DNA of 42,869 nt from NCBI RefSeq assembly GCF_017302315.1, contig NZ_JAFLDT010000031.1, positions 1 through 42,869 of the forward strand. Direction: 5' to 3'. Position numbers and translations under genes: made by a program. This document shows, in pieces, positions 17,067 through 42,869 of this stretch (positions are counted from its first letter, which is position 1; each line of letters begins with the position of its first letter). The stretch is from Zoogloea sp. GTDB taxonomy: Bacteria > Pseudomonadota > Gammaproteobacteria > Burkholderiales > Rhodocyclaceae. The notes under the pieces were generated by a model, which did not search any database, was not told where the DNA came from, and saw nothing but the letters and a program-made list of their open reading frames with translations.

Positions 17067-17074
17067 GAGATTCC

Positions 17075-17095
17075 CGGGGAAGCCTTGCTTCCCCG
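17075..17095 (+). other. Spacer hairpin between tRNA-Gly and tRNA-Cys
   Basis: CGGGGAAGC and GCTTCCCCG form a perfect 9 bp stem with a 3-base loop. Only a short T-containing tail (GTTTGATT) follows, so it may be a weak terminator or a processing signal rather than a full stop, since two further tRNAs without an evident promoter follow. Confidence 0.55.
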
Positions 17096-17105
17096 TTTGA
17101 TTCAC

Positions 17106-17179
17106 GGCGCGATAGCAAAGCGGTTATGCACCGGATTGCAAATCCGTGTAGGTCGGTTCGACTCCGGCTCGCGCCTCCA
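17106..17179 (+). tRNA. tRNA-Cys (anticodon GCA)
   Basis: A 74-nt cloverleaf with acceptor arms GGCGCGA/TCGCGCC, anticodon stem CGGAT/ATCCG around TTGCAAA giving anticodon GCA, and T-loop GGTTCGACTCC. The CCA is encoded. It sits between two identical tRNA-Gly genes. Confidence 0.96.
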
Positions 17180-17192
17180 GGTATAGAACAAG

Positions 17193-17268
17193 GCGGCAGT
17201 AGCTCAGTTGGTAGAGCGCAACCTTGCCAAGGTTGAGGTCGAGAGTTCGAGACTCTTCTGCCGCTCCA
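17193..17268 (+). tRNA. tRNA-Gly (anticodon GCC), copy 2
   Basis: A 76-nt gene identical to the copy at 16991-17066, with encoded CCA. It is the last member of the Gly-Cys-Gly cluster and is followed by a strong terminator 6 bp later. Confidence 0.96.
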
Positions 17269-17274
17269 GCATGT

Positions 17275-17312
17275 AACGGGGAAAACGATGATGCGTTTTC
17301 CCCGTTTTGTTT
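17275..17312 (+). terminator. Rho-independent terminator of the tRNA cluster
   Basis: AACGGGGAAAACG pairs with CGTTTTCCCCGTT in a 13 bp stem with a 6-base loop, followed by a T-rich tract to about 17312. Confidence 0.9.
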
Positions 17313-18726: not shown

Positions 18727-18733
18727 CCGACGT

Positions 18734-19156
18734 TCAGTGCATGTCGTCCTTGTCCGGTGGCACCGGCAGGACGGGAATGCCTTCCTCGATCAGTTCGATG
18801 ACCTCCTTGCGGTCCGCCTTGCCCCGGATGGCCCGCTCCTCGCTGTCCCCGTAGTGGATGCGGCGGGCTTCCTCCGCGAAACGTTCGCCCACGTCCTCGG
18901 ACTTTTCTGCCGCGCTGCGCAGGGCATCGATCAAGCGAGTGGCGATGGTTTGGGGACTGGGTGCGGTGGATGCGGCAGGCGCCGAATGGGAGGAGGTCTG
19001 GACATAGGGTGCCGAGGGCAGGCGCCTCACTTCCTGGCTTCCGCAGTGGGGGCAGCTCACCAGACCGGCCGCGAGCTGGTTTTCAAAGGCCTCGCCTGAG
19101 GCAAACCAGGCTTCGAAGTGGTGCTCCCGGTCACAGCACAGGTCGAGGACGATCAT
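18734..19156 (-). CDS. DUF1178 family protein
   Basis: A 140-residue protein. The N-terminus MIVLDLCCDREHHFEAWF with a later CPHCGS forms a zinc-ribbon-like cysteine arrangement (about residues 7-8 and 35-38). An Ala/Ser/Pro-rich linker follows, then a helical C-terminal half, RIHYGDSEERAIRGKADRKE, ending IPVLPVPPDKDD, which is highly characteristic of DUF1178. Function is unknown. It is encoded downstream of glgA on the same strand (90 bp gap) and converges on the glycosyltransferase. Confidence 0.88.
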   Translation of the reverse strand: MIVLDLCCDREHHFEAWFASGEAFENQLAAGLVSCPHCGSQEVRRLPSAPYVQTSSHSAPAASTAPSPQTIATRLIDALRSAAEKSEDVGERFAEEARRIHYGDSEERAIRGKADRKEVIELIEEGIPVLPVPPDKDDMH

Positions 19157-19245
19157 GGTTGGGCGACTCCATGGGGTTCATTGCAGCCCCCGGAAGGTCG
19201 GGGCAGGGAGGCCGGATTCAAGCCCCCGTCCGCTGGCCGCGCATT

Positions 19246-23267: not shown

Positions 23268-25243
23268 GGCGTACGGGGCTCGATGGTGATCTGGAGTTGG
23301 AGGGTGCAGTCGTCGTCGGGGATCGTCCAGCCAAGGCTGACTTCGGTCGCCTGCATGATTTTCTCAAAGCCCGCTTCCGACTGGGAAACGGTGTGGTGGG
23401 GGCGGCCACAGACCCGGGCCCCGGAGGCGATGGTGAGGCGCAGGAGGCCGCCGAGTACGCCGTCCTCAAGGGTCAGCCCCGCGGCCTCGGGCAGGTCGAG
23501 GGCCTGGCCGAAACCACAGGGAATGTGTCCGTCCTCGAGCACGTAGCGCCCGAGGAAACCGTCGCAGCTAGGCATGGCCAGATTGAGGGTGGTGGTGAGT
23601 TGCTGCCCCGCGAGACCCCTCAGCTGCCAGTGCACGTCGATGGTGGCTGCCGTCACGGTGTAGGTCTTGTCGATGCCCTCGCGCTGGAAGAGAGCCGGGC
23701 TGTCGTCCGCCTGTCGATAGTCAGCCAGGGTGTGGCCGTCCAGCTGGTCCAGCCAGAGGACCCGGGGATGGGGGTCGGGCAGCACATCGGAGGCCTCCAC
23801 CGGATGCTTGAAACGCACGATGTCGTGGGCCGAGGCGATGCCGCTGCCGTCGTGCTGGCTGGGGCCGGCACCGATGCGTTCGTGGTAGTGCTCGCTGTGG
23901 CGGCGCAGGGTGTCGCCGAAATTGTGGGTCAGGGGATAGCTGGACAGTTCGTGGACGGCGCCGAGCCCGTCATCCCGCAGGGCGATCTGCAGCAGTGGAG
24001 TGGTGACGAGGGTCTCCCGGCAGCCATCCAGGTCCATATCGTCAGGGCGGCCGGGGGCTCGGGGCTGCAGGCGATCGAGACCGGCCTCGAGGGTGAGGAT
24101 GTTGTTCCACACGGCCCGGCGCAGGTGGGGCAGGTAGAGCCCGCCGAAGAGCCCGTGCCAGTAGGCGTCGTTGGCCTGGGCACGGTACAAGGCCTCGGTG
24201 AGTTCCGCGGGGGGCGCGGGTAGTGCGGTGAGCCGCGCCGACAGGCCCTGCATGCGCTTGTGCATCCAGTTGGCCTCCGGGTAGCGGGACAGGAAGTTGC
24301 GCCAGATGCCACCACGGATGAAGGGGCGGTGCAGGTCGCCCCGCCCCGCCGCCTTCTCGCTAGCGAGGAGCCGGGCATAGGTGGCGGCTGCCGGCATGGG
24401 CAGGGTCCACTCGTTCATCTCGCTGTAGGAGGCGGTGGGCAGGTACACAATGCCGCGGGTGGCTTGGCGGGCGTGGAAATCGGCGTAGGTGGCGGTGCGG
24501 ATCCTGGGGCTGGCCAGCACGCCTTCGATCAGGGCCTTGAGCCAGCCCCGGTTGTAGACCCAGTCGTAGGTTTCAGGCCAGATGCCGAATTTCTCGATGT
24601 CGTCGAAGTAGATGGCGGCGCTTTGGCCACTGTCGGCCATTTGCTCCAGGTAGGCCACCACCTCATGGGCAGGATGGAAGGGCAGGCGGTAGCGCAGGGC
24701 TTCGGAGATGGGAAAGAGATCGAGGCGGGTGCCATCCTCCTCCGTGCTGAAGTGGCCGTCCAGCTCGCTGGCGCTGCGGCCGGTACAGAAGAAGTGGTAA
24801 TCATCGACGGTCACGTAGCGGATGCCGGTTTCGGCCAGGGCCGGTACGACCGCGGATTCCCATACCCGCTCGGTGAGCCATGCACCCTGCGGGCGTATGC
24901 CGGTCCAGGTGGTGAGCTTATCGTTGAGCGCGGTGAGCTGGCCCACCCTGTCCCGGTGCGGAATTGCGGCGAGCACGGGTTCGGTGTCGCCGGAGCTGAA
25001 CATCTCCACCTGGCCGCGCCGCACCATCCCGGCGAGCATCTCCATGTCGTCCGGAAAGCGCGTGCGCAGCCAGTCCAGCAGCCAGCCGGAGAAATGGGCG
25101 GCGAAGCGGAAGTCCGGGTAGGCGTTGAGGGTTTCCAGGAAGGGCTTGTAGCAGCGCCGGTGGGCATCCTCGATCACTTCGGGGAAATTGCCCACGGGTT
25201 GGTGGGCATGCACACCCAGGAGCAGGGTCACGGCGCGGGTCAA
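23264..25243 (-). CDS. GH57 4-alpha-glucanotransferase-like enzyme
   Basis: A 659-residue enzyme likely to disproportionate or hydrolyse alpha-1,4-glucans. The N-terminal GH57 barrel starts TLLLGVHAHQPVGNFPEV. The nucleophile glutamate is in AWLTERVWES and the acid/base aspartate in IYFDDIEKFGIWPETYDWVY, both like the Thermococcus litoralis 4-alpha-glucanotransferase. That archaeal enzyme is, to my recollection, also about 659 residues. The C-terminal half matches the DUF1925/DUF1926 beta-rich layout. TTG 25243 is chosen over GTG 25231 because GGAG lies 7 bp upstream; the frame runs further upstream only as the antisense or overlap of the neighbouring gene. It lies between a second GH57 gene and glgP. 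Transferase versus amylase activity cannot be decided from sequence alone. Confidence 0.9.
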   Translation of the reverse strand: MTRAVTLLLGVHAHQPVGNFPEVIEDAHRRCYKPFLETLNAYPDFRFAAHFSGWLLDWLRTRFPDDMEMLAGMVRRGQVEMFSSGDTEPVLAAIPHRDRVGQLTALNDKLTTWTGIRPQGAWLTERVWESAVVPALAETGIRYVTVDDYHFFCTGRSASELDGHFSTEEDGTRLDLFPISEALRYRLPFHPAHEVVAYLEQMADSGQSAAIYFDDIEKFGIWPETYDWVYNRGWLKALIEGVLASPRIRTATYADFHARQATRGIVYLPTASYSEMNEWTLPMPAAATYARLLASEKAAGRGDLHRPFIRGGIWRNFLSRYPEANWMHKRMQGLSARLTALPAPPAELTEALYRAQANDAYWHGLFGGLYLPHLRRAVWNNILTLEAGLDRLQPRAPGRPDDMDLDGCRETLVTTPLLQIALRDDGLGAVHELSSYPLTHNFGDTLRRHSEHYHERIGAGPSQHDGSGIASAHDIVRFKHPVEASDVLPDPHPRVLWLDQLDGHTLADYRQADDSPALFQREGIDKTYTVTAATIDVHWQLRGLAGQQLTTTLNLAMPSCDGFLGRYVLEDGHIPCGFGQALDLPEAAGLTLEDGVLGGLLRLTIASGARVCGRPHHTVSQSEAGFEKIMQATEVSLGWTIPDDDCTLQLQITIEPRTP

Positions 25244-25260
25244 GATGGGTCTCCGTCGGG

Positions 25261-26916
25261 TCAGGTGGCGCGCCGCATGGTGCCACCGCTCTCGGGGGCG
25301 CCACCACCGCGGCTGATGGGGTGGTCGAGGCTGCTGGGCGCGGGAAGCCCGAGCAACCGGTAAAGGGCACGGATGTTGTCCCGGAACAGCTGGTCGAAGG
25401 CGCTTACGGATTCGGAGGCGTTGTAGTCGCCCAACCACCAGAACCAGTCCGAGCTTTCGCATACGGCCAGCAGGGCAACAATCTGCTGGCGTTGGCCCGC
25501 GTCCGCCGCCGCGTTCTCGAGAACCCGGTCGGCACATTGCTTGACCTCGCAGAGCAGCTCCCAGGCGTGGTTCTTGTCGGGGTTGCCGATCCAGGTGGAC
25601 AGGGTGCCGTAGACCCAGCTACCGGCGACCAGGCGGGGCAGGCGCCGCCGTCGGTGCCGATGGCCTTCTTTCGCTTCTGAAAGGGTCAGGGTGCGGATGG
25701 CCGGATTTCGGGCGAGGCTCTCGTAAAGGTCGTTGAAGAAGTACCAGCCGTTGTAGGGGTAGTACTCCCAGGCGTTTTCACCATCAAGGAAGACCGGGAT
25801 GAGCCCTTCCGGAGCGCGCTCATGGAGGGTGATCACTTCGCTCATGAAGTGGGCCGCCGCGTCGCGGCCGTGCCAGCGGGCATACTCAAAACCGATAAGG
25901 TCGGAGAGATGCTCGTTGCGGAAAAACAGGGTCAGGTCGCCGGGAATGTCTTCCGGCGCCTGCCACGGCACGCCCGTGTCGGCGCCAGGACCGGCGGAGT
26001 GCTGAAGCACCCCCTGGCTGCTTGCCGTCCAGGTGAATCCTGCGTCGGCGATCTGGCGCAGAAAGGCCATCGACAGGGCGCCTTCTGCCGGCCACAAGCC
26101 CTTGGGCGTCTGGCCGAAGCGCTGTCGGTGGCTGTGCTGGGCAAGCTGCAAATGGGCCTCGACCCGAGAGCGGCCGCCGGGGTAACCCGGTGCCGCGGGT
26201 AGCTGGCAATCGGGCTGCGCTTCGCGGGCCACGCCGAAATCCAGCAGCAGGGGGGCCAGCGGGTGGTGAGAGGGGGTGCAGCTAAGTTCGATCTGGCCGC
26301 GGTCGGCAAGTGCGCGATAGCGTGGAACGAGTCCGTTAAGTACGGCGCCGATCTCGCTGACCAGGGCCTCGCGGTCGGCCAGCTCGAAGTTGCCTCCCTT
26401 GGCCATCAAGGCTGCGATGGGGCCGGGGCTCCGACGCAGGCTCTCTCCGCTCCAGGCAAGGACATACCAGGTGGCCAGATCGGCGTAATACTGCCCCGAG
26501 AGGTAGGCGAGGCCGTCGGCGTCCTGACTGCGCACGAAGGCAAGCAGGTCACGCAGGCGCCGATAGGGGGCAAACGGCTCCAGCATGGTCGGGGCGTGGC
26601 AGCGGAAGGCCATGTCCAGGAGCCAGTTGCGGTCGGCCGGCTCGAGTTGGTCGGGGTTCGGCCAGGCGAGGATGCGCAGCAGCGGGTCGCGCCACTGACG
26701 GGTGGCGAGCTGGTCGCAGTAGTCCTCGATCTGGGCCAGCAGGACAGGCACGAAGTTGACCGTGCAGCGGATCGCCGGGTGGCGTTCCAGGTGACTGGCC
26801 ATGTCCGGATAGTCCTTGAGCGCGTGGAGCAGGGCCCAGGGCAACGTGAAGTGGCCGGTCTCCGGATGCCGGTAGTCCGGCTGATGCATGTGCCACAGGA
26901 AGGCGAGATCCGCCAC
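25261..26916 (-). CDS. GH57 glycoside hydrolase (alpha-amylase/amylopullulanase type)
   Basis: A 551-residue GH57 enzyme. Its N-terminus FLWHMHQPDYRHPETG carries the family motif HxHQP. The putative nucleophile glutamate is in GLWPAEGALS and the acid/base aspartate in PVFLDGENAWEYYPYNG. The C-terminal helical part includes SWVYGTLSTWIGNPDKNHAWE and ESSDWFWWLGDYN. No signal peptide is seen, so it is cytoplasmic. It lies 18 bp after glgC and 17 bp before the GH57 transferase-like gene. A role in trimming or debranching storage glucan fits the context; the exact linkage cleaved is unknown. Confidence 0.9.
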   Translation of the reverse strand: MADLAFLWHMHQPDYRHPETGHFTLPWALLHALKDYPDMASHLERHPAIRCTVNFVPVLLAQIEDYCDQLATRQWRDPLLRILAWPNPDQLEPADRNWLLDMAFRCHAPTMLEPFAPYRRLRDLLAFVRSQDADGLAYLSGQYYADLATWYVLAWSGESLRRSPGPIAALMAKGGNFELADREALVSEIGAVLNGLVPRYRALADRGQIELSCTPSHHPLAPLLLDFGVAREAQPDCQLPAAPGYPGGRSRVEAHLQLAQHSHRQRFGQTPKGLWPAEGALSMAFLRQIADAGFTWTASSQGVLQHSAGPGADTGVPWQAPEDIPGDLTLFFRNEHLSDLIGFEYARWHGRDAAAHFMSEVITLHERAPEGLIPVFLDGENAWEYYPYNGWYFFNDLYESLARNPAIRTLTLSEAKEGHRHRRRRLPRLVAGSWVYGTLSTWIGNPDKNHAWELLCEVKQCADRVLENAAADAGQRQQIVALLAVCESSDWFWWLGDYNASESVSAFDQLFRDNIRALYRLLGLPAPSSLDHPISRGGGAPESGGTMRRAT

Positions 26917-26934
26917 GGTGCTGATCCCGGAGGC

Positions 26935-28260
26935 TCAGGTGGTTGGGGCCGCTGCGCCCTGGCCGAGCATCTCGGCGGTGACCAGGGTGACACCGCCGGG
27001 CGAGACAAAGAAGCGCTTGCGGTCCTCGTCCGGATCCAGTCCGATGCAGAGCCCTTCCGGTATGCGCACGTTCTTGTCGATCACGCAGCGCCGGATCACC
27101 GCATGCCGGCCGATATCCACGTTGGGCAGGATCACGGAATCCTCGACCCGGGCCCAGCTATGCACATTGACACTCGAGAACAATAGCGAGCGCTTTACCG
27201 TGGCCCCGGAGATGATGCTGCCACCGGAGACCATGGAGTCCACTGCCATGCCGCGCCGATCGTCGTCGTCGAAGACGAACTTGGCAGGGGGGAGCTGCTC
27301 CTGGTAGGTCCAGATCGGCCATTCCCGGTCGTAGAGATTGAGATCGGGGGTGACCTTGGTCATTTCCATGTTGGCTTCCCAGTAGGCGTCGATGGTGCCC
27401 ACGTCACGCCAGTAGGGTTGCTGATGGTCGCTGCCCACGCAGGAGTCGGCAAAGCGGTGGGCGAACACCCGGTAGCGCGGCACGATGTGGGGGATGATGT
27501 CCTTGCCAAAATCCCGGCTCGACCCCCTGGTCAGCGCGTCGCGGCCAAGCTGCTCATAGAGAAAGTCGGCGTTGAAGATATAGACGCCCATGGAGGCCAG
27601 GGCCCGTCCCGGGTTGCCCGGCATGGGGGGCGGACTGGCGGGCTTCTCGACAAAATCGATCACCCGGCCTTCGTCGTCCACATTCATCACCCCGAACTCC
27701 CGTGCCTCGGCAATGGGCACATCAATGCAGGCGACGCTCATGTCAGCGTGATGCCGGGCGTGGAAGGCCAGCATGCGACCGTAATCCATCTTGTAGATGT
27801 GATCGCCGGCGACGATCAGGATGTGGCGCGGGCTGTTGTGGCGGAGAAAGTTGAGATTCTGGTACACGGCGTCGGCGGTGCCCTGGTACCACTGGGTTTC
27901 ATCGATCTGCTGCTGGGCGGGAAGAAGCTGGATGAACTCGCCGAAACGCCCGTCGAGGAAGCTCCAGCCCCGCTGGATGTGACGGATCAGGCTGTGGGCC
28001 TTGTATTGGGTGGCCACCCCGATCTTGCGGATGCCGGAGTTGACGCAGTTGGACAGGGTGAAGTCGATGATGCGGAACTTCCCCGCGAAGGGTACCGCCG
28101 GCTTGGAACGGAAATCGGTAAGCTGCTTGAGACGGCTGCCGCGGCCGCCGGCCAGGATGATGGCGAAGGTATTGCGGGTGAGCTGGCTGATGAAGCGCAG
28201 GTCGGTCTGATCACGCATCTCGCAATACGGCAGATGCGGACAGGTGTTGCTCGGGGCCAC
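26935..28260 (-). CDS. glgC: Glucose-1-phosphate adenylyltransferase
   Basis: A 441-residue enzyme that makes ADP-glucose from ATP and glucose 1-phosphate, the committed step of bacterial glycogen synthesis. The nucleotidyltransferase domain has [36 protein letters not shown] and [13 protein letters not shown]. The C-terminal left-handed beta-helix contains the hexapeptide-like [19 protein letters not shown] and ends HFFV-like [12 protein letters not shown] 28260 has GGGAG 7 bp upstream and is preferred to ATG 28218. It is the first gene of the minus-strand operon and is divergent from glgB, only 55 bp apart, so both likely share a control region. Confidence 0.97.
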
Positions 28261-28315
28261 GATTGTTCTCCCTTGCTACTGTTTTGCCGTATGGTACTGC
28301 GCGAAGGGGGCGGAA

Positions 28316-30181
28316 ATGCAGCTATCTGATGCCATGCATCTTTTCAATGAAGGGCGCAACGTGCAATCGTACCGGTTGCTGGGCGCCCATCCGGATGCGA
28401 CCGGTACCGTGTTCCGGGTTTGGGCACCGAATGCCGTGGCGGTGGCGGTGGTGGGCGACTTCAACGGCTGGGACGGGGATGCCGACCCCATGCACAGCCT
28501 GGGTGGCGGCGGCGTGTGGGAAGCACGGGTGGCGTCGGCCCGGCCCGGCAGCCTGTACCGTTTTGAGATCACTTGCCAGAACGGCGGCGGGCGTGTGCGC
28601 AAGAGCGACCCCTATGCCCGCGGTTTCGAGTTGCGTCCTGGCTCCGCCGCCCGCGTGGCAGGCCCATCGCAGCATGTCTGGCGCGATGCCGCATGGATGG
28701 CCCGCAGGGCGGTCTGGGACTGGTTGCATGCACCGGTCAACATCTACGAGCTGCACGCGGGTTCATGGATGCGTCACCCGGATGGCTCACCCTACCGGTG
28801 GCCGGAGTTGGCCGAGCGTCTGATCCCCTATGCCCTGCAGCAGGGCTATACCCATCTGGAGCTGCTGCCCATCACCGAGCACCCCCTTGACGAATCCTGG
28901 GGCTATCAGACCACCGGCTATTTCGCGCCGACCTCCCGCTATGGCTCACCGGACGAGCTGCGCGCCTTCATCGATGCCTGCCACCAGGCTGGGCTGGGGG
29001 TGCTGCTGGATTGGGTTCCGGGGCATTTCCCGCAGGATGACTGGGCCCTGGCCCGCTACGACGGCACCGCGCTCTATGAGCACGCCGACCCGCGTCTGGG
29101 GGTACATGCGGACTGGGGGACGCACATCTTCAACTACGGCCGCCACGAGGTTCGCAGCTTCCTGCTGTCGTCGGCCCACTGGTGGCTGGCGGAGTTCCAT
29201 TTTGACGGCCTGCGCGTGGATGCAGTGGCGTCCATGCTCTATCTAGATTATTCCCGCCGGCCCGGCGAGTGGCTGCCCAACCGTTTTGGCGGGCGCGAGA
29301 ACCTGGAGGCCATCGATTTTCTGCGCGACCTCAACACCCTGGTGCACGGGGAGTTTCCCGGTGCTCTGACTTTGGCGGAGGAGTCCACCGCCTGGCCGCA
29401 GGTCTCGCGGCCGGCCTACACGGGGGGGCTGGGGTTTTCGATGAAGTGGAACATGGGGTGGATGAACGACAGCCTGCGCTATTTCCGGCGTGACCCGGTG
29501 CATCGGCGCTGGCATCACGACGAGCTGACGTTCGGCCAGATGTATGCCTACAGCGAGAACTTCGTCCTGCCCCTGTCCCACGATGAGGTGGTGCATGGCA
29601 AGGGCTCGCTGTTTGGCAAGATGCCCGGCGACGAGTGGCGGCGGCGGGCCCAGTTGCGCCTGCTGCTGGCCTGGCAGGCGTGTACCCCGGGCAAGAAGCT
29701 GATGTTCATGGGCGGCGAGTTCGGCCAGGTCCGGGAGTGGTCCGAAGCCCGCGAGCTGGACTGGTTCCTGTTGGCCGACGCCGGTCACGCTGGCATCCGG
29801 CGCCTCTCCGCCGACCTCAATCACCTCTACCGCGATCTGCCCGCGCTCCACGAGCAGGATTTCGAGCAGGCGGGTTTCGAATGGATAGACTGCCACGACA
29901 GCGAGCATTCGGTGTTGGCCTGGCTGCGTCTGGCCCGGGATGGCCGTTTCGTGGTGGTGCTTGCCAACTTTACCCCTGCGCCCTGCAGCGACTACCGCAT
30001 TGGCGTGCCCCGGGCGGGAATCTACCAGGAGATCCTCAACTCCGATTCAGCCCACTACGGGGGCAGCAATCTGGGTAACGGGGGGCGGCTTGAGGCGGTC
30101 GAGGGGGCCTGGATGAACCGGCCGGCCAGTCTGGTGGCAAACCTGCCGCCCCTGGCCGTGGTGATCCTTCAACCGGCCTGA
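28316..30181 (+). CDS. glgB: 1,4-alpha-glucan branching enzyme (short, lacking N1 module)
   Basis: A 621-residue GH13 enzyme that makes alpha-1,6 branches in glycogen. A CBM48-like N-terminal domain (about 20-110: [32 protein letters not shown]) precedes the GH13 barrel. The catalytic nucleophile aspartate is in [17 protein letters not shown], the acid glutamate in [11 protein letters not shown] and the transition-state aspartate in [12 protein letters not shown]. The E. coli enzyme is 728 residues; the missing about 110 correspond to its extra N1 module, so this is the shorter form. ATG 28316 is preferred; the frame upstream lies in the glgC control region. Its 3' end overlaps convergent glk by 13 bp. 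Confidence 0.97.
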
Positions 30182-31119
30182 AGGCGGGTTGCCGCCAGGG
30201 CCAGGGCACCGAGCAGACCGAGGCGCTCTTCGGTGACCAGATGGATGGGCGTGGCTTCGGCCAGCGGGCGATGCTCCCGTTTGGCGTTGAAGGCTGTCAC
30301 GAAGGGCGCTGCACCAGCACCGTCAGGGAGCAGCTTGGCGGCCATGCCCCCGGCCAGGTAGACCCCGCCCCGGGCGAGCCACTGCAGGGCCAGGTCGCCG
30401 GCGAAGGCGCCGTAGGCTTCCAGCCACAGGTCAAGGGCCCGGCGTGCCAGTGGGTCGCTGCCGTCCAGGGCTGCGGCGCCCACACCGGCCGGGCTGTCTG
30501 CCCGACCACCCAGGAAGCGGAGGATGCGCACCAGGCCCGGCCCCGACACCACGTCCTCCACGCTGACCCGGCCCGTTTGGGCCAGCAGCGCCTCCGCCAG
30601 TTTCAGTTGTTCCGGCGTCTGGGGCGAGAAGCCCATATGGCCGCCCTCGCCGGGAATCACCTGGCTGCGTTCGCCATTCCAGATAATGCCCGCCACCCCG
30701 AGCCCGGTGCCGGCGCCGAGGATAACCCGGGGCGCCCGGGCCAGTGGCTGGCCGGCCTGCAGCGGTACGATGTGCTGCGGCGCGACCAGGGGCAGGCCAT
30801 GGGCTGCAGCGGCAAAATCATTGACCAGCCCCACATGCCCGATGCCGAAGCGCCTTTCCAGGGCTGACGCGGACAGGTGCCAGGGCAGGTAGGTCAGGTC
30901 CGCCGTCTGCCCGTCGGTAGGCCCGGCGACGCCAAAGCAGGCCGCCGCCGGTATGGGGCCACCCGCCAGGAAGTCGTCCAGCAGGGGGGCGAGTCCTTCA
31001 TGTTCGCAACTGGCGTAGCGCTGCTCGCGCAGGATGGAGATACCTTTGGCGTCGAGAGAGGCCAGGGCCAGCAAGGTTTTGGTGCCGCCGATGTCGCCGC
31101 CGAGCAGCAGGGTATTCAT
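30169..31119 (-). CDS. glk: Glucokinase
   Basis: A 316-residue cytoplasmic kinase converting glucose to glucose 6-phosphate, here probably collecting glucose freed from glycogen turnover. The phosphate-1 motif is [32 protein letters not shown] and [13 protein letters not shown] follow, with [14 protein letters not shown] as the ATP-binding segment and the conserved EGGHMGFSP region. [17 protein letters not shown] is in the C-terminal lobe. ATG 31119 is preceded by GAGGG. The layout matches the E. coli Glk type, not ROK kinases. It is downstream of the tRNA-Leu terminator on the same strand. Confidence 0.95.
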
Positions 31120-31138
31120 TGCGCACCCTCTGAAACGA

Positions 31139-31168
31139 CAAAGCCCCCGGACCAGGGCCGGAGGCTTC
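31139..31168 (-). terminator. Terminator downstream of tRNA-Leu
   Basis: Read on the minus strand, AAGCCTCCGG and CCGGGGGCTT form a 10 bp stem with one mismatch and a 7-base loop, followed by TGTCGTTT. It lies 22 bp after the tRNA-Leu 3' end and ahead of glk. Confidence 0.7.
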
Positions 31169-31189
31169 GACTTGCGATGTCGTGCACGA

Positions 31190-31274
31190 TGGTGCCCGGA
31201 ACGGGACTTGAACCCGTAAGGCTTGCGCCGGCGGATTTTAAGTCCGCTGTGTTTACCAATTTCACCATCCGGGC
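31190..31274 (-). tRNA. tRNA-Leu (anticodon TAA)
   Basis: An 85-nt gene with acceptor arms GCCCGGA/TCCGGGC, a class II long variable arm and anticodon loop CTTAAAA giving TAA. The T-loop GGTTCAAGTCC is seen and the CCA is encoded. It lies 10 bp from the end of minE on the same strand. Confidence 0.95.
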
Positions 31275-31284
31275 GGGGAGGGCT

Positions 31285-31545
31285 TCAGCGCTGGGGCTGT
31301 TCCGGCAGGGTGATGTTGACTTCGAGGATCTCGCAGTTGTCCTGCTTTTCGAGCTGGACCTTGATGTCGTCGGGGCCCACATTGACGTACTTGGAAATCA
31401 CGGCGATCAGCTCGCGCTGCAGTTCCGGAAGGAAGTCCGGTGCCCGGTTGGTGCCCCGCTCGTGGGCGATGATCAGGGACAGGCGCTCCTTGGCAACGGA
31501 GGCGGTCTTCTGCTTGGAGCCGAAGAAATAGGAAAGAAGGGACAT
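31285..31545 (-). CDS. minE: Cell division topological specificity factor MinE
   Basis: An 86-residue protein that stimulates MinD ATPase and drives Min oscillation. The N-terminal amphipathic [20 protein letters not shown] is the membrane- and MinD-binding part. [20 protein letters not shown] and [12 protein letters not shown] form the anti-MinCD helix and dimer strand. It is the last gene of minCDE, one base after minD. Confidence 0.97.
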
Positions 31546-31546
31546 C

Positions 31547-32362
31547 TCACTTGCCTCCGAAGAGGCGCTTCAGCAGGCCGGGCTTTTCGTAGGTGACGAA
31601 TCGCAGGGGCCGATCTTCGTCGAGGAAGCGGGCGATGACGTCCTGATAGGCGGTGGCGACGTCGCTATCCTTCAGGTGGATGGCCGGGGTGCCCTGGTTG
31701 GAGGCCTGGAGCACGTCGTCGGATTCGGGGATGACGCCGATCAGCGGCACGCGCAGCAGCTCCTGGACGTCCTTGTAGGAGAGCATCTCTCCGTCCTCGA
31801 CGCGCTTCGGGGAGTAGCGGGTGACCAGCAGGTGTTCCTTGACCGGCTCGCGGCCTTCCATGGCGCGGCGGCTCTTGCTTTGCAGGATGCCGAGGATGCG
31901 GTCGGAGTCGCGCACGGAGGAGACTTCGGGGTTGGACACGACGATGGCTTCGTCGGCGAAGGTGAGGGCCATCACGGCGCCCCGTTCGATGCCGGCCGGG
32001 GAGTCGCAGATGACGTAGTCGAAGCCCATGTGCCCGAGCTCCTTGAGCACCTTCTCGACGCCTTCTTCGGTCAGCGCGTCCTTGTCGCGGGTCTGGGAGG
32101 CGGGCAGGATGAAGAGGTTTTCGCAGTGCTTGTCCTTGATCAGGGCCTGGTGCAGGTTGGCCTCACCGTTCACCACATTGATCAGGTCGTACACCACGCG
32201 ACGTTCGCAGCCCATGATGAGGTCGAGGTTGCGCAGGCCCACATCGAAGTCGATGACGGCGGTCTTGTAGCCACGCAGGGCCAGACCGGTGGAAATGCTT
32301 GCGCTGGTGGTGGTCTTGCCGACGCCACCCTTGCCGGACGTTACTACGATGACGCGTGCCAC
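31547..32362 (-). CDS. minD: Septum site-determining ATPase MinD
   Basis: A 271-residue membrane-associated ATPase that recruits MinC and MinE. It has the deviant Walker A motif [15 protein letters not shown] at residues 9-23, the [18 protein letters not shown] switch region and [10 protein letters not shown]. The C-terminal amphipathic membrane-targeting helix [11 protein letters not shown] is present. It is 1 bp from minE and 31 bp from minC, the standard minCDE operon. Confidence 0.98.
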
Positions 32363-32393
32363 GATGTCCCCTTAAGTCGTATGAGTCGCCGCT

Positions 32394-33182
32394 TCAGTCG
32401 TTCTGAAGCGGCATGATTTCGAGAGTATGCAGATTGTCGGATCCGCTCAGCCGGACGTGGGCACCGCGCCCCGCGACAGCCTGCGGGATGCCCCGTTCGA
32501 AGGTGCGGTACACCCCGGCAATGGAGACCAGCTCGGGGCCGAAATTGGTGCTGAAGATGCGCGCACCGGTGTCGCCCCGGGCGCCGGCCAGGGCGCGGCC
32601 GCGCAGAGGGCCGTAGCAGTGGATGCAGCCATCGGCGATGACCTCGGAGCCCGGGCTCATGCCGGCCAGCAAGACCAGATCGCCACCCTTGGCATACACC
32701 TGCTGGCCGGAGCGCAGCGGACGTTCGACGACCATGGTGGGCGCTGCCGTGGCTGGCGCTGCAGCCGGCTGGGGTGGCGGAGGTGCTTCGACGGGGGCTG
32801 GGGCTGGGGCCGGTGGCGGGGCCTGGGGCGCGGCGATGGGGCGCTCGGGGGAAATGCCCTCCGGACCGAGAATGGCCAGATTGGCGCGGCGGGCGCCGTC
32901 GTGCAGGTAGTCCGGCAGGTTGCGCACACCAATCGGCTGTACCTGGTAGCGGCGCAGCAGGCTGATGATGGCGGTCCAGTCCACCCGGTCCGGTGTGCTG
33001 ACAAGCTGGGCGAAGTCGAGCACCGCCGGTTCGCCGGCGAAGAAGTCCGGCATGCCGCCGAGCATCATGTGCAGGGCGTCGGCAAGACGCACGGCTTCCG
33101 TTTCACGGAGGTGGGCGGTCATCACCGCCAGGCTGGCGCCTTTGAACTCGATCAGTTTGCCCTGCAGGGAAGCGTCGGCCAT
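32394..33182 (-). CDS. minC: Septum site-determining protein MinC
   Basis: A 262-residue FtsZ inhibitor. The N-terminal FtsZ-inhibiting domain (about 1-105) contains [21 protein letters not shown] long Ala/Pro-rich linker follows at about 120-150 ([20 protein letters not shown]). The C-terminal beta-helical dimer domain has [37 protein letters not shown] and [19 protein letters not shown]. The linker is longer than in E. coli MinC (231 residues) and explains the extra length. ATG 33182 opens the minCDE operon. Confidence 0.97.
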
Positions 33183-33273
33183 GGATGTCGGGTGGAGGGT
33201 TAGCGGACTTAAACCGGTGAAGTCTACTTTTCAGCGGGGTTTCGGGCAAGTCCGCTCGCCAAATGACTGAAGA

Positions 33274-34143
33274 TCAATGCAGGATGCGGGGTTCGGCGGG
33301 GGGCTCCGCGAACAGGGCGGCCACATCTTCGGCATCGAAGCGGTATTCGTGGTTCGACAGATCGTCGTGAATCAGGATTTCGCCGTGTTCTTCGAGCATG
33401 GCTTCAAGCTCGGGCCGCCCCAGGGAGCGCAACATGTCGCGTACTTTGTCCCAGTCCTGGGGCCAGTCGTGGGTTACTTCGCGGGCATCCAGGAGGCGCA
33501 CGGTTTCCTGGTGGAAGAGACGGATCAGGAGTTCCTCGGCGGGAAGCCCGAGGAGCTCGTCCTCGCGCACCGTGGCGGCCAGGCGGGTGATCCGGTCCCA
33601 GCCGTCCGGATCCTTGCGGTCGGCATCGGGGAGCTTCTGCAGGAACAGGCAGGCTGCGCCGCGGGAAGAGGCTGCGGTGTGCAGGGCTGCGGGTTGCTGC
33701 TCGGACTGGGTGAGGTAGTGCTCGAAGATCTCGGCGACGGAGTTGCCTTCGATCGGTACGAAGCTTTGGTAGGGGTGGCGCAGGCCGGGCATGTCCAGGG
33801 TCAGCAGGAGCTGGCCGTCACCCACCAGGTCGGCGATGCTGACCTTGCCGGCCACCTCGTCACTGGCCTTGGCGTAACCGCGCAGGTTGAGGGCCTCGGT
33901 CACGTCCACCACCAGCAGGCTCACGGGGCCGTGGCCCTGAAGCTGGATGGTGAGGCGGCCTGCCTGCTTCAGGTTGCCGCCGATGACGCTGGCTACCGCG
34001 CTCATGGCGCCGAGCAGGTCGCGCACCGTGGACGGGTAATTGCGCGAGGCCAGCAGGGCTTGCCAGACGTCGTCGAGCCTGACGAAGGCGCCGCGGATGT
34101 CGAGATCTTCAAGCAGAAAGCGCTGGAGGATGGAGGTGCTCAT
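33274..34143 (-). CDS. hslO: Hsp33-family chaperone lacking the redox-switch cysteines
   Basis: A 289-residue Hsp33 homologue. The N-terminal chaperone domain is clearly conserved ([56 protein letters not shown]). Hsp33 is normally controlled by a C-terminal zinc site made of a CxC and a CxxC motif. Here the first region reads [15 protein letters not shown] and the second [16 protein letters not shown], so all four cysteines are replaced. One cysteine remains, near residue 164 (GAACLFLQ). ATG 34143 overlaps the ArsC-like stop in ATGA; the frame is open to 34452, but only as a shadow of the neighbouring gene. It may be a constitutive chaperone or one with a different trigger. Confidence 0.92.
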
Positions 34144-34505
34144 TCGGTCGTCCCTGCCGGGCTGAGAAAGCTGGTGTAAAGGGCGGTGTCGAGGCCGACC
34201 AGCAGTTGCCCGCCATCGGTCTCGATGACCGGCCTGCGGATCAGGCTGGGGAATTCCTGCATCAACGCGACGGCGGCGCTCTGGGTGTCGATGGCCTGGC
34301 GCTCGACCGGCAACTTGCGCCAGGTGGTGCCGCGGGTGTTGATGAGGCTCTTCCAGCCGATGGCCTTGCTCCAGGCATGGAGGCGGGCGGAGTCGATGCC
34401 GGACTTCTTGTAGTCGTGGAACGTGTAGGCCACCGCGTGCTCGTCGAGCCACGCAAAGGCCTTTTTCATGGTGTCGCAGTTCTTGATGCCGTAAATCGTT
34501 GTCAT
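34140..34505 (-). CDS. ArsC/Spx-family (YffB-like) protein
   Basis: A 121-residue thioredoxin-fold protein. It begins [20 protein letters not shown]; the conserved cysteine at about residue 10 follows the GIKNC pattern of YffB-like ArsC homologues, with DYKKSGID after it. The C-terminal [17 protein letters not shown] provides the Arg-Pro pair typical of the family. These proteins are arsenate reductase-like but mostly of unknown substrate. It overlaps hslO by 4 bp, so the two are likely coupled. Upstream, an 8 bp inverted repeat (34519-34541) separates it from tex. Confidence 0.88.
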
Positions 34506-34594
34506 GGTGCGGAAGCAGCGCGACGCCCCGGGAGGCGTCGCTGGAAAATCATGGGGATGGGGCGGATTTTAGCGGCCTGCAGCAGTGCCCGGGC

Positions 34595-36922
<2,328 letters not shown>

Positions 36923-37105
36923 GGACGGTTGCTGGCGTGGAAAAAGGGCGCATGGTGCAGAAACCCGGCCGCCGCTGCAAGCCCGTCGCCCGACAACTTT
37001 CCGGTAGAATTCGCCGATTATTCGTGCCGTGGGCAGCCCCCACCCGTGCACGCCCCGCCGGCCGTCTGTTTCGACGTGCCCGGCCTCGCAGGAGATACAC
37101 ACCCA

Positions 37106-37345
37106 ATGAACCCCCTATTCGCTACGCTGGCAGCGGTGGCGTTCGGTCTGATGGTGGTCGGAAGCGATGCTTCCGCCGCGCCGCAGCCCGCGCACCCGGC
37201 CAAGGCCGCAAAGCCTGCCGCGTCCAAGCCGGCCCCCAAGCCGGCCACCCAGAAACCCGTTGCCCAGAAGCCTGCCGCCAAGGCAGCGGCCCAGAAGGCC
37301 GCGCCGGCACCCAAGGCCGTTGCTGCCCGCGCGCCGGCCGCCAAA
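37106..37345 (+). CDS. Exported Ala/Lys/Pro-rich protein, N-terminal fragment cut by junction
   Basis: The start is ATG 37106 with GGAGA about 11 bp upstream. Residues 1-24 form a signal peptide ([14 protein letters not shown], cut after ASA). The next 55 residues repeat KPA, KPAP and QKPA units, ending near AARAPAAK, an unfolded cationic stretch typical of exported linkers or histone H1-like tails. After about residue 80 the frame runs into sequence that belongs to other genes: it continues through an unrelated fragment in the wrong frame and stops at 37540. The C-terminal domain, and so the function, is missing. Confidence 0.6.
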
Positions 37346-37426
37346 GACGATGGCATGGATCGGCACGCCGTTCGGGTTTTCCCAATCCGGGTCCATCGTC
37401 GGGCACTGCTTCGCCGGCGCGGTGAC
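37325..37426 (-). other. Fragment of GTP-type phosphoenolpyruvate carboxykinase at assembly junction
   Basis: Read on the minus strand this interval encodes about 34 residues without a start or stop, with [17 protein letters not shown] followed by [16 protein letters not shown]. This matches the conserved GTP-PEPCK segment QCP-x-(I/M)-D-P-x-W-x-(D/N)-P-x-GVPI-x-AI-x-FGGRR. Both sides stop abruptly. At the right end the same bases encode CFAGAVTD of GH27 on the plus strand, and at the left end RAPAAK of the Ala/Lys-rich protein. The fragment is too short to be a gene, and its dual reading at both ends points to a false join through shared short words. Confidence 0.75.
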
Positions 37427-38561
37427 CGATGGCAATATCCGCGACGCCGCCCGCGTGATGGCGGAAAGCAGTCTGGTGGACCACGGCTGGTGCTATGTGA
37501 ACAACGACGATTTCTGGCAGGTGAAACCCGGCAGCAATGATCCCACCTTGCAAGGCCCCGAGCGCGACGCGGAGGGCAATATTCTAACCAACAAGCGCTT
37601 TCCCGACATGAAGGCGCTGACCGACTACATTCACGGGCTCGGTTTGAAAGCCGGTTTGTATTCCTCGCCGGGACCGCTGACCTGCGGCGGATGCTCGGGC
37701 TCGTTCGGCCATGAGGAACAGGATGCCGCCAGTTATGCCAAGTGGGGATTTGACTATCTGAAACACGATTGGTGCTCGTATCGTCCCGAGTCCGAAAAGG
37801 ACCGTGCCAAACCCGCGCCGCGACTTTCCGTGCTGGATAGCATCACCAACGACGAGAAGCCCAAGCTGATGATCCCCTACGCCACGATGCGCGCCGCGCT
37901 GGACCGCCAGCCGCGCGATATCCACTACAGCCTGTGCCAATACGGCATGGGAAATGTCAGCGAATGGGGCGATATGGTGGGCGGCAACAGTTGGCGCACC
38001 ACCGGCGACATCAACGACTCCTGGAGCAGCATGGCGGGGATCGGTTTCAAACAGGCGGGCCTGGAGAAATACGCCAAACCCGGACGCTGGAATGATCCGG
38101 ACATGCTGGTGGTGGGCCATGTCGGCTGGGGGCCGGCCCTGCATCCCACCAAGCTGACTCCTAACGAACAATACACCCACATTTCGCTGTGGAGCCTGCT
38201 CGCCTCGCCGCTGCTGATCGGCTGCGATCTCACCAAGCTGGACGATTTCACCGTCGGTCTCCTCACCAATGATGAAGTGCTGGAAGTCAATCAGGACGAA
38301 CTCGGCAAACAGGCAGGCCGCATTTCCAAGGATGGCAACGGCGAAGTCTGGGCCAAGCAAATGGTTGACGGATCATGGGCCGTGGGATTGTTCAACCGCG
38401 GCACCGCGCCGCTCCAGGTCTCGTGCGACCTCTCGCTGCTCAACATCAGGGGCGCCGCCCAGGTCCGTGATCTGTGGCGCCAGAAAAACGAAGCTCCCGC
38501 CAGCGGCAAGATCACCCGGACCATCCCGCGCCACGGCGTGGCCCTGCTGAGGGTGAAGTGA
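37407..38561 (+). CDS. GH27 alpha-galactosidase, N-terminally truncated by junction
   Basis: About 384 residues of a melibiase/alpha-galactosidase that removes terminal alpha-galactose. Homology begins at [15 protein letters not shown]; the preceding signal peptide and the GWNSWN opening motif are lost at the junction. The nucleophile aspartate is in [10 protein letters not shown] and the acid/base aspartate in [12 protein letters not shown]. The conserved [16 protein letters not shown] and a C-terminal beta-sandwich ([19 protein letters not shown]) follow. The frame differs from the upstream Ala/Lys-rich ORF. Members of this type are frequent in Verrucomicrobia and Planctomycetes polysaccharide-degrading genomes; the taxonomic hint is inference. 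Confidence 0.92.
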
Positions 38562-38603
38562 GGGGGATGGGAGCCTCCGCGGATTTGGGAAGTTCGCGCG
38601 ATC

Positions 38604-38632
38604 TTGACACCAATCCGCAGAACACATAGACA
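38604..38632 (+). promoter_or_regulatory. Candidate promoter of the cyclophilin gene
   Basis: TTGACA (38604-38609) and TAGACA (38627-38632) are separated by 17 bp, a good sigma-70-like pair about 50 bp before the cyclophilin start. A perfect hairpin, CGGGGG-AAG-CCCCCG (38642-38656), lies in the predicted leader. Confidence 0.5.
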
Positions 38633-38682
38633 CTGGGCGAGCGGGGGAAGCCCCCGATGCTCCTCCGTGTTCGAACAATCCC

Positions 38683-40053
38683 ATGAAATCGAAACTTCTC
38701 GCCCTATCCGTGCTCGCGTTGCTGACACAGGCGTACGCCGGTTCCAAACGACTGCCTGTTCTCAACCAGCCGATCGCCAATATGGCCACCGTTGAGGTGG
38801 CGCCGATTGTGGTCAATCTCAATCAGGTTTTTGGAACCGAGGCGATCGACGATCAGGTGGTGAGGTTCACCTCATGGTATTCGTTAAGTGGGGCGCCGGT
38901 GGTGCTCGACTTCGCGCTGTTCAGCCAACGAACGCCTGCCACCCGGGCGAATTTTCTCAATTATGTGAATGGTGGGGATTACGTCGATTCCATCATCCAC
39001 CGGAGTGTTCCGGGTTTTGTAATCCAAGGGGGTGGGTTTCGCTTTGGCACCGGTGGGTTGGAATCCGTTCCGACCGATCCTCCGGTGGTGAATGAGTTCG
39101 GGGTTTCGAATACGCTCGGGACCATCGCCATGGCCAAACTGGGAGGCGATCCCAACAGCGCGACCAGCCAGTGGTTTGTCAGCCTGGGAGCCAACTCGGA
39201 TACCCTGGATCCCCAGAACGGAGGATTCACGGTTTTCGGCAGGGTCACGAAAGGCACCTTTGGCAATGCCCAGATTTTCGGAGATCCTGTGGATTTTCCG
39301 ATCTGGGATGCGGGTGGCGCGCTCAACGAACTCCCGCTTTTCCAGTCGTTTGTGGACGGGATCGGGCAGTCGTGGCCGGATTATTCGATCCTCTTCGAAA
39401 GCGTCACGCTGGAACCCCTCCCGGCCGGTCAGGCGGGGGAATCCTCGATCCTAACCTATTCGGTGGTTTCCAACAGCAATTCGGCCCTTGCCTCGGCCGT
39501 CCTAAACGCGGGCAATCTGACCGTGACCCCGGTGTCCGGTCAAACCGGGTCCACCACAATCACAATCCGGGCGACCGATAGCGTGGGCAACACGGTGGAT
39601 GACACGTTCCTTGTGACCGTCAACGCCTCTGACACCTACAGCACCTGGGCGTCGCGCACGACGTTTTCCAACAATCTGAGCGCGATGACCCAGAACGGGG
39701 ACGGAGATGCGCTGAACAACCTGCAGGAATACGCGTTTTTCGGGAATCCTTCAACCTCGGCGCAACCGGCGCTTCCCGTGAACGGCACGACGGGAATCGC
39801 TCCGGGTGCCCGCTACATGACTTTGGCATTTCCGGTCCGAAAGTTCACCACCGGGCTGACCTACACGGTTGAATCCAACACCGGCCTCGACGGATCATGG
39901 ACTACCGTGTGGAGTTCGACTGACGGATTCTCACATGCGCAGGTGGTTTCCGCCGTTTCACAGGCCGACCGCACGCAGGTGACGGTGAAGGACGTTGCGG
40001 CCATCGGGTCCAGCACCCGCCGCTTTATGCGGGTCAAGGTGGTTCAGAACTGA
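38683..40053 (+). CDS. Exported cyclophilin-type peptidyl-prolyl isomerase with C-terminal modules
   Basis: A 456-residue exported protein. A signal peptide (LLALSVLALLTQAYA) is cut near residue 20. The cyclophilin domain (about 45-230) has LFSQRTPATRANFLNYVN, YVDSIIHRSVPGFVIQGGGF, MAKLGGDPNSATSQWFVSLG and FTVFGRVTKG. An Ig/cadherin-like beta domain follows (about 245-310, TPVSGQTGSTTITIRATDS). The C-terminus has an acidic GDGDALNNLQEYAFFGNP repeat-like element, then a module with YTVESNTGLDGSW and RRFMRVKV, a style common in Verrucomicrobia surface proteins. No Shine-Dalgarno sequence is visible before ATG 38683. Prolyl isomerase activity of exported proteins is probable; the partner is unknown. 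Confidence 0.88.
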   Translation: MKSKLLALSVLALLTQAYAGSKRLPVLNQPIANMATVEVAPIVVNLNQVFGTEAIDDQVVRFTSWYSLSGAPVVLDFALFSQRTPATRANFLNYVNGGDYVDSIIHRSVPGFVIQGGGFRFGTGGLESVPTDPPVVNEFGVSNTLGTIAMAKLGGDPNSATSQWFVSLGANSDTLDPQNGGFTVFGRVTKGTFGNAQIFGDPVDFPIWDAGGALNELPLFQSFVDGIGQSWPDYSILFESVTLEPLPAGQAGESSILTYSVVSNSNSALASAVLNAGNLTVTPVSGQTGSTTITIRATDSVGNTVDDTFLVTVNASDTYSTWASRTTFSNNLSAMTQNGDGDALNNLQEYAFFGNPSTSAQPALPVNGTTGIAPGARYMTLAFPVRKFTTGLTYTVESNTGLDGSWTTVWSSTDGFSHAQVVSAVSQADRTQVTVKDVAAIGSSTRRFMRVKVVQN

Positions 40054-40073
40054 AGAACTCCCTCTCTATCCAA

Positions 40074-41078
40074 ATGCATGGCGCCCTGATGCTGATGGGA
40101 CTTTCGGGGGCGACGCTCACGGCGGACGAGGAACGGTTGGTTAGGGACTTGCAGCCGGTCGGTTTTCTGATCGACGCCGTATTGGGTGCCGGGCCGCGGG
40201 AGATGCGCGCGTTGACTGACAGCTTGCGGAAGCTGAGCGGGCGGCAGCCGGTGGTGGCGGTGGGGTTCGAAGTCGCGAGGCGTTTGGCGGCCGCGGGAGG
40301 AGGTCCCGTCCTGCCGGGGGCTGCGGATTTGATAGGAAATAGCGATTTGAAAACGACCGCAACCGCCGGCATGCTGACTGGCGAGATGTTTGGTTTGTTA
40401 GGTATCAACATGTGTCTGGGACCCGTGCTGGATCTCGGCGATCCGGGCGGTGCGGCGGGCGCGTGGAGCAGGGATCCCCAGCGGGTGATCGACCATGCCG
40501 GGCAGTGGAACCGCTGGCTGAGGAAACGCGGCGCGGTGTGTTGCGCGGGACGGTTTCCCATCGGAAATGCGGCCCGCAGCGAGGATGATGCGGATACCCT
40601 GCAACGCGGCCCCCTGCTGCCCTACACCGCGCTGATGCCGGAACTGGATGCGATCCGGATGGCGGCGGGGGAGATGGCCGGGATCGAATCGGGACTGCCC
40701 GCCACCATGGCTTCCGGTGTCGTTGGCAAACTGCTGCGGGACCGCCTGGGTTTCGATCATCACGCCGTTGTCAGCGCGGATTTGGCTGAGGTGTCCGCGG
40801 TTTCCGGCATTCCTCCGGCCGATTGCGCGCGCAAGGCGGTTGAAGCCGGATGCGATCTGATTCTATTGGCGGATGGCGCGGCGATGGGTTCCGCCATTGC
40901 TGCGGGGATGGCCAAGCTGCCCATTCCGGTGTTAGGCGACGCCTGGCAACGGGTCGAGCGGCTCCGGGATAAGTTGCAGTGGCCCCGCCCGTGGTCGGAG
41001 GCGAAGTGGGCGGAGTGGTCGGCGAAGGCGTGCGATCTCCTGCCGACTTTCGGTTGGAACCGGCTTCAATCGCCGTGA
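40074..41078 (+). CDS. NagZ-like GH3 protein without catalytic residues
   Basis: A 334-residue cytoplasmic protein without a signal peptide, recognisable as the GH3 N-terminal barrel by its opening ALMLMGLSGATLTADEERLV and the later GINMCLGPVLDLGDPGG. The functional motifs have changed. The substrate-binding DHEGGRVQRF of NagZ is VGFEVARRL here. The KHFPGHG loop is GRFPIGN. The nucleophile region SDDL is SADL, leaving alanine where the nucleophile aspartate should be. It may be a pseudoenzyme or a protein with a new role. It starts 20 bp after the cyclophilin gene and is likely co-transcribed. Its 3' end overlaps the convergent nidogen-domain gene by 13 bp. Confidence 0.75.
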   Translation: MHGALMLMGLSGATLTADEERLVRDLQPVGFLIDAVLGAGPREMRALTDSLRKLSGRQPVVAVGFEVARRLAAAGGGPVLPGAADLIGNSDLKTTATAGMLTGEMFGLLGINMCLGPVLDLGDPGGAAGAWSRDPQRVIDHAGQWNRWLRKRGAVCCAGRFPIGNAARSEDDADTLQRGPLLPYTALMPELDAIRMAAGEMAGIESGLPATMASGVVGKLLRDRLGFDHHAVVSADLAEVSAVSGIPPADCARKAVEAGCDLILLADGAAMGSAIAAGMAKLPIPVLGDAWQRVERLRDKLQWPRPWSEAKWAEWSAKACDLLPTFGWNRLQSP

Positions 41079-42679
41079 ATCACCGAGGTCTCCATCGTTT
41101 TCACAAACGGCGGATTGTGGTTGGTGGTGGCGGTCAGTTTGAACCGATAAACGCCGGAGTGCGGCAACACCACAGTCGGATTGATCGAGCTGGCGTTCTG
41201 GATACTGGCCTTCTCACCTTCGGTCTGGGTCCAGAGCACCGTGGCCACGTTTTGTCCGTTGAACTTGGCATAGGCGTCGGAAAGCTGCACCGAAAGGGGA
41301 TCCGCGGACGCGCGCTGATAGGATCCGGTGGCGATCTCGAAGGTCCCGGGGTGGACGACATTGATCGCATCCGACGAAGATGCGGTGAAGGTTCCCTGTT
41401 TCACACCGTAGAGGCGGAACGTGTATTGGCCGGTATCGGCGATCTGGATGGTCGGGGTGAGGGTGTTGCCGTTGGTGATGACCGCTTCGGGTGTTCCGCT
41501 CTCCTGCACCCACGTGTAGGTGACGCCGGTGGTGTCCGTCGGGGTCATCGTGGCGTTAAGGTTGAAAACCCGGCCGGCGCTCGCCATGAGGCTGAAATCC
41601 GAACCGGCGTTGACGGAGAAATCCAAACCGGTTTCGGTCTGGGGAAGGCCGTTGACCACCGGAATAATGATGCGCCCCGGTACACCGCTGTTCCACATCT
41701 GATAGATCAGGCCCTGCGCATGGTTGGGATCATCGTTGGACAACCGATCAAGGAGCGCCATGGACGTTCCGGATCCTTGGAACTCCATGAAAAGCCCTTG
41801 GCCATTGGTCCAGCCGACCCGCGCCGCGGAGCCGCCGAATCCGTAGCTGCCACCGCTGGCGTCGCCGGTTTCCCATTCGATCCGGTTGTAGTTGAACTCG
41901 ATGTCGAAGTCTCCCGGATTGCGGTCCGCCCGTTCGATGAGAATCAGTTGGAAGGTGTTCGTTTTCTCGACATGTTGGCTGAAGTAGCCGACTTCGCGCC
42001 ATGTGACGCCGAATGCCTGGCGGCCGTTGACGACGCCGGGAAGGCTGGAAAAGCGGGTGACGCCGGAGAGCGGGTTGCGGCTGTCCACATCCGCCCAGAA
42101 GGGAGCGATCATCACCGACTGCTTTTTGATGAGGCTCTCCGGGGTGTAAACGAACAGGGGTGCGTCGCATGTGATGTTGCCGTTGTTATTCACATAGCAA
42201 GACGAGCGAGCGACGCCGAAAAGGTTGATGGCGAATCCGAGTTCCACCGTGGTCGCGGGACCCGCGAATTGGGGGTAGCAGTGATCGTCTCCCCGGCTCA
42301 TTTCGACTTGGTCGAAGCCCGGCCTCACCGCTCCCTCCCGCAGACGGTAAAACCCCCGGAGCCCGGGTTTCGGAACCAGGGCCGTGATGGCCGAGTTGTT
42401 TCCGATGTGGAGGCAGCCGCAGTCGGTCCAGGAAACGAGATCCTCGCTGACCTCGACTTGATAAGGCCGGAGCATGCCCCCATGCCAGGACAGTTCGATC
42501 TGGCCGTTCGGCGCCGGGCAAATCCCAAGCGACGGAACCTGTTCGGTTGCCGCAAGAGTCGAGCCTCCGACCGCCACAAACACCAGAGCGGCCGTCCGGA
42601 TAGGCCTGGCAACCCCGCGATTTCCCCGGACGACTGGCGTGGGGCGGCGTTTCGGGCGGTGCTGGAATGATGGAGGCAT
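41066..42679 (-). CDS. Secreted nidogen-domain (NIDO) surface protein
   Basis: A 537-residue protein. Basic residues precede a signal-peptide-like segment (AALVFVAVGGSTLAA) ending near residue 44. A module with YQVEVSEDLVSW and GFYRLRE follows at about 60-105. The NIDO-type domain at about 130-330 contains CYVNNNGNITCDAPL, MIAPFWADVDSRNP, FGVTWREVGYF, NTFQLILIERADRNPGDFDI and AARVGWTNGQG. The C-terminal third has two Ig/PKD-like beta domains (TTGVTYTWVQESGT; ATVLWTQTEGEKAS) and ends KTMETSVIHGD. ATG 42679 is the likely start; the frame remains open to the window end. It is probably an adhesin-like cell-surface or extracellular protein of the second genome. Confidence 0.75.
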   Translation of the reverse strand: MPPSFQHRPKRRPTPVVRGNRGVARPIRTAALVFVAVGGSTLAATEQVPSLGICPAPNGQIELSWHGGMLRPYQVEVSEDLVSWTDCGCLHIGNNSAITALVPKPGLRGFYRLREGAVRPGFDQVEMSRGDDHCYPQFAGPATTVELGFAINLFGVARSSCYVNNNGNITCDAPLFVYTPESLIKKQSVMIAPFWADVDSRNPLSGVTRFSSLPGVVNGRQAFGVTWREVGYFSQHVEKTNTFQLILIERADRNPGDFDIEFNYNRIEWETGDASGGSYGFGGSAARVGWTNGQGLFMEFQGSGTSMALLDRLSNDDPNHAQGLIYQMWNSGVPGRIIIPVVNGLPQTETGLDFSVNAGSDFSLMASAGRVFNLNATMTPTDTTGVTYTWVQESGTPEAVITNGNTLTPTIQIADTGQYTFRLYGVKQGTFTASSSDAINVVHPGTFEIATGSYQRASADPLSVQLSDAYAKFNGQNVATVLWTQTEGEKASIQNASSINPTVVLPHSGVYRFKLTATTNHNPPFVKTMETSVIHGD

Positions 42680-42869
42680 GGAATTCCCGGCATGGAAAGC
42701 GGCACCCGTCGGCACCCGTTTCCGAGGCAAAGATAGCCCGAGGAACATCCTTGGCAAGCCCGGAAAACAGCGAATTTCGCGGAGTCTCCCAGCCGATGTC
42801 GCCGTGGTCTGTTGGTTGGGCGGTGCCGCCCGGATCGGCGCCGGATCGGTGAAAGCGGGTGGATTCATC

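Follow-up and report, generated by a model that had tools for sequence, protein, structure and literature searches.

Interspecies chimeric contigs are a described product of short-read metagenome assemblers: they carry two taxa on one contig, are joined at short shared words and cut both flanking genes. K-mers shared between genomes are described as one cause (PMC7299287). The window analyzed here is the whole of one contig (C91; 42,869 bp) from a Zoogloea genome, and it shows these same properties. It is unlike the typical case in that the partners are not joined directly; a scrap of ≈100 bp from a third genome lies between them. The evidence strongly supports an artefact in which Zoogloea-like DNA has been glued to unrelated Verrucomicrobium DNA via this short scrap of a third gene. 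Judged from sequence, the contig is almost certainly an interspecies assembly chimera whose join would have no biological function. The features to which we refer are the following.

1–37,344: left arm, Zoogloea-genus chromosome DNA (DNA match from 17,500; gene content and composition alone for 1–17,499)
34,595–37,102, minus strand: tex gene, given as the longest ORF, so that the true start may be internal (Pfam Tex_N, Tex_central_region, Tex_YqgF, HHH, S1)
37,106–37,344, plus strand: Ala/Lys-rich ORF, 5′ part only, ≈80 codons
37,328–37,425, minus strand: GTP-PEPCK scrap from a third organism (limits from 11 stacked loci)
37,328–37,344: 17-bp word fitting both the Zoogloea ORF and PEPCK (identical in locus L008 of G015; inside the PEPCK homology)
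37,405–37,425: 21-bp word common to PEPCK and the Verrucomicrobial GH27 gene (exact in L026; inside the PEPCK homology)
37,405–42,869: right arm, from UWPOB_VERRUCO3 or a strain nearly identical to it (3 differences in 5,465 bases from JAFLEH010000004.1, no gaps)
37,405–38,561, plus strand: GH27 alpha-galactosidase-type gene without its N-terminal part (Pfam Melibiase_2, E 2.6e-43; Melibiase_C)
38,683–40,053, plus strand: Verrucomicrobial cyclophilin-type peptidyl-prolyl isomerase (Pfam Pro_isomerase, E 6.5e-25)
40,074–41,078, plus strand: Verrucomicrobial GH3 N-terminal domain protein (Pfam Glyco_hydro_3, E 1e-13)
41,066–42,868, minus strand: Verrucomicrobial Nidogen-like/PKD protein at the contig end (Pfam NIDO, E 7e-25; K319L-like_PKD, E 1e-15)

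The initial annotation had proposed that an assembler walked across this join, and the right arm supports that reading, being 99.9% identical to, and unbroken in, a 319-kb contig of another MAG from the same study. That contig, JAFLEH010000004.1 (319,685 bp), belongs to UWPOB_VERRUCO3 (Akkermansiaceae), and the full gap-free alignment to it extends over 37,402–42,869, where 4 of 5,468 bases differ. The differences lie at 37,404, which falls in the part matched by PEPCK alone, and at 37,504, 37,861, and 42,168, which may be strain variants or low-coverage errors. The match runs down to the last base of the window, in keeping with the earlier description of all genes right of the join as Verrucomicrobia-like. 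JAFLEH010000004.1 thus holds the same DNA as window positions 37,405–42,869, but its GH27 gene continues uninterrupted upstream. Across the join position the native GH27 reads [19 protein letters not shown], and the native protein reads ...[21 protein letters not shown]...; the window alone lacks the N-terminal part of the domain. The catalytic domain is therefore incomplete in the window, where the residues before CFAGAVTDG, present in the native copy, are replaced by PEPCK-derived sequence. The gene does begin mid-domain, as had been claimed, with the unbroken native match starting at 37,405 and not at 37,407. A scan of genome contigs with the GH27 protein confirmed 296 relatives; among the best 80 of these, JAFLEH010000004.1 ranked first (99%), followed by two matches at 77%. 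Among the 40 relatives searched for GH27, the window's own genome was the sole positive (0 of the 39 others).

The left arm belongs to the genus Zoogloea. A single same-genus genome, G006, covers 17,500–37,211 in three collinear blocks of 92%, 96%, and 95% identity, apart from 58 bases; the assignment of all genes left of the join to the Betaproteobacteria is thus borne out by DNA for this interval, and for 1–17,499 solely by gene content and composition. Of 40 relatives, the window's own genome included, 36 match the segment 34,595–37,345 (E ≤ 0.001), the closest other relative being 92% identical and of the same genus. Nearest the join, the 344 bases up to 37,344 (37,001–37,344) show 97.1% identity to G015 and 93.3% to G003, and both alignments end at 37,344. 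Base by base, identity to G015 is 315/324 at 37,001–37,324 and 19/20 at 37,325–37,344, then drops to 11/60 at 37,345–37,404, which places the loss of coherence of the Ala/Lys-rich ORF where it had been noted, near 37,345. The native ORF is 412 aa long in G003 and 411 aa in G006, whereas in G015 it stays open as far as the contig reaches; in the window its frame passes into unrelated sequence after ≈80 codons. Both arms thus occur separately and uninterrupted elsewhere, the right arm in JAFLEH010000004.1 and the left ORF in G003, G006, and G015. Because the left ORF continues in relatives and the N-terminal part of GH27 is present in the native copy, both flanking genes are truncated by the join, as the initial annotation had held.

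Two further observations concern the left arm itself. Compared in 100-bp steps, it is a mosaic at 36,595–36,794, inside tex: its nearest relatives are G006, G004, or G011 up to 36,594, and from 36,695 they are G015 and G003 (G015 at 96–100%), with G006, G004, and G011 falling to 50–92%. Either natural recombination or a second, intra-genus assembly mosaic would account for this pattern. At a separate site (31,131–31,274), next to the window's tRNA-Leu(taa) (31,190–31,274), ≈2 kb present in G006 is absent from the window, a difference that is possibly an insertion beside the tRNA.

Between the arms, the minus-strand frame matches 33 residues of the Pfam GTP-dependent phosphoenolpyruvate carboxykinase profile (PEPCK_GTP, PF00821; E 3e-10), in agreement with the conserved block previously read at 37,325–37,426. 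The match takes in profile positions 145–177 of 357 only, and the frame is not full length; unlike a PEPCK gene, it is a scrap. By BLAST, all 13 PEPCK loci compared match the scrap DNA, 10 of them spanning 37,328 or 37,329 to 37,425; the three partial matches are L114, ending at 37,423, L115, ending at 37,409, and L118, beginning at 37,365. When 11 of the 13 loci were stacked base by base, the window departed from all 11 at 37,327 and at 37,426, which narrows the block to 37,328–37,425. Taken with the ends of the arm matches, these limits give shared words of about 17 bp and 21 bp and leave 60 bases (37,345–37,404) that belong to neither arm. The join therefore lies at short shared words on both sides, with the PEPCK side judged from relatives and the left side from G015, so the true length of the left word may differ from 17 bp by a few bases. 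The earlier estimate of about 20 bp per edge compatible with the coding of both partners comes close to both values.

The scrap does not come from the PEPCK of either partner. An origin in the genome's own full PEPCK gene (on contig C99) was rejected at 77% identity, and one in the PEPCK of UWPOB_VERRUCO3 at 78%, values that also favor the chimera reading. The genome's second, partial PEPCK, on contig C18, spans profile positions 256–350 and is therefore not the same piece. Scrap DNA is matched in 20 of 60 relatives (own window counted), the best other match being 83% in G047, a genome of the same family and the sole one of its genus in the collection. A 56-base PEPCK core, searched with at most 3 mismatches, occurred in the window alone among 120 relatives and again among 398 phylum-drawn genomes, a set that overlaps the 120 relatives. 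In a plasmid search 15 records matched the scrap, with a top identity of 81.3%. The donor was not found among the relatives, phylum-drawn genomes, and plasmids searched. Some of the scrap residues (...NPxGVP...AIVFGGRR) are common to the Verrucomicrobial locus L116. Of the second PEPCK on C18, only the C-terminal 288 bp are present (L003, 1,488–1,775), with 82.6% identity to the C99 gene and an aminotransferase after it, as on C99; the similarity ends abruptly at 1,775, and the unrelated ORF beyond looks HNH- or phage-like by eye only. This break may be another candidate join, or the gene may simply be broken.

Composition separates the arms only modestly by itself. GC content is 64.3% in the left arm and 61.4% in the right, and the tetranucleotide correlation of the right arm is 0.869 with other VERRUCO3 DNA versus 0.720 with the left arm. 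For six chunks of right-arm length taken from the left arm (1–32,790), the correlation is 0.840–0.881 with the remainder of that arm and 0.590–0.782 with VERRUCO3. Three pooled loci from Zoogloea relatives, which are short and mostly one gene, did not discriminate (left arm 0.779, right arm 0.743), and the 0.779 of the left arm is little above its 0.767 with VERRUCO3. The tetranucleotide comparison that the initial annotation had proposed thus places the right arm nearer to VERRUCO3 and gains nothing from the pooled relatives.

Both partners appear to come from one sample set. A study of a photosynthetic phosphorus-removal reactor describes 86 MAGs from three samples, obtained from libraries sheared to 300-bp fragments and 2 × 150-bp reads (SRR13786854–SRR13786856) that were assembled with metaSPAdes v3.9.0, the samples both together and singly, then binned and dereplicated (PMC8103865). 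Among the MAGs are UWPOB_ZOOG2 (Zoogloea; 4.52 Mbp in 165 contigs, completeness 95.2%, contamination 1.8%, without 16S, mean abundance 0.163%) and UWPOB_VERRUCO3 (Akkermansiaceae UBA1315; 7.04 Mbp, mean abundance 0.216%) (PMC8103865). The window's genome comprises 4,516,272 bp in 165 contigs and is 95.05% complete with 2.96% contamination; our search found no bacterial 16S in it, the same search being positive in 9 of 14 control genomes. We infer that this genome is UWPOB_ZOOG2, although its contamination is 2.96% here versus the published 1.8%. Because the samples were assembled singly as well as together, the same Verrucomicrobial DNA can plausibly stand in two MAGs.

These observations suggest how the join would have formed, the assembler step itself being a reconstruction. 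During graph-building from short reads with a small word size, a path would have left the Zoogloea ORF via a GC-rich word common with PEPCK, crossed PEPCK for less than the length of one read, and exited through the 21-bp word common with GH27. The bridge of 98 bp is indeed shorter than one 150-bp read. SPAdes uses a default starting k of 21, and under a simple random model genomes of 4.5 and 7.0 Mb would share 14 to 88 21-mers by chance, depending on GC; crossing two such words would thus be unremarkable. Against such a walk, the left word is 17 bp, shorter than 21. We propose that coverage did not contradict the wrong path because the two organisms occurred at similarly low abundance; binning would then have followed the longer arm and assigned the contig to Zoogloea.

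Two other origins of the joined sequence can be weighed against an assembly error. The window could record a genuine horizontal transfer, very recent and at least 5.5 kb in size, from the Verrucomicrobium to a Zoogloea, with the PEPCK scrap of a third organism caught at the join. The joined sequence is, after all, present in a contig of the deposited type, and the two organisms shared one reactor if the MAG identification holds. The moved piece, however, would still be 99.9% identical to a resident genome, would begin inside one gene and interrupt another, and would bring along a fragment of a third organism that has a short shared word at each edge, and GH27 is absent from the other relatives searched. 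Both edges of the join fall inside genes, and no integrase, transposase, or repeat is among the features listed there. A genuine cross-phylum transfer in the reactor, with repair via 17–21 bp of microhomology and filler from a third bacterium, is so improbable as to be barely credible. A hybrid molecule made in the laboratory, by PCR template switching or by ligation during library preparation, could instead have served the assembler as a bridge. Template switching also favors short shared words. A sheared fragment of 300 bp could contain the 98-bp scrap and both edges, but two switches within one molecule, surviving into the assembly, would be needed. We consider this origin very unlikely, if somewhat less so than a transfer, and a laboratory hybrid would equally not be biology.

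Overall, the feature is almost certainly an artefact. The contig should be cut at the join, with the left piece ending at 37,344 and the right piece starting at 37,405, and should not be taken as evidence of gene transfer. The window offers a clean worked example of such a join: the contig of the partner is publicly available, as are the raw reads provided that the window's genome is UWPOB_ZOOG2. A gene-transfer scan would obtain a false recent cross-phylum event from this contig. The window's genome is the only representative of its species in the collection searched, and the Verrucomicrobium glycosidase, isomerase, and NIDO/PKD genes would therefore be credited to a Zoogloea.
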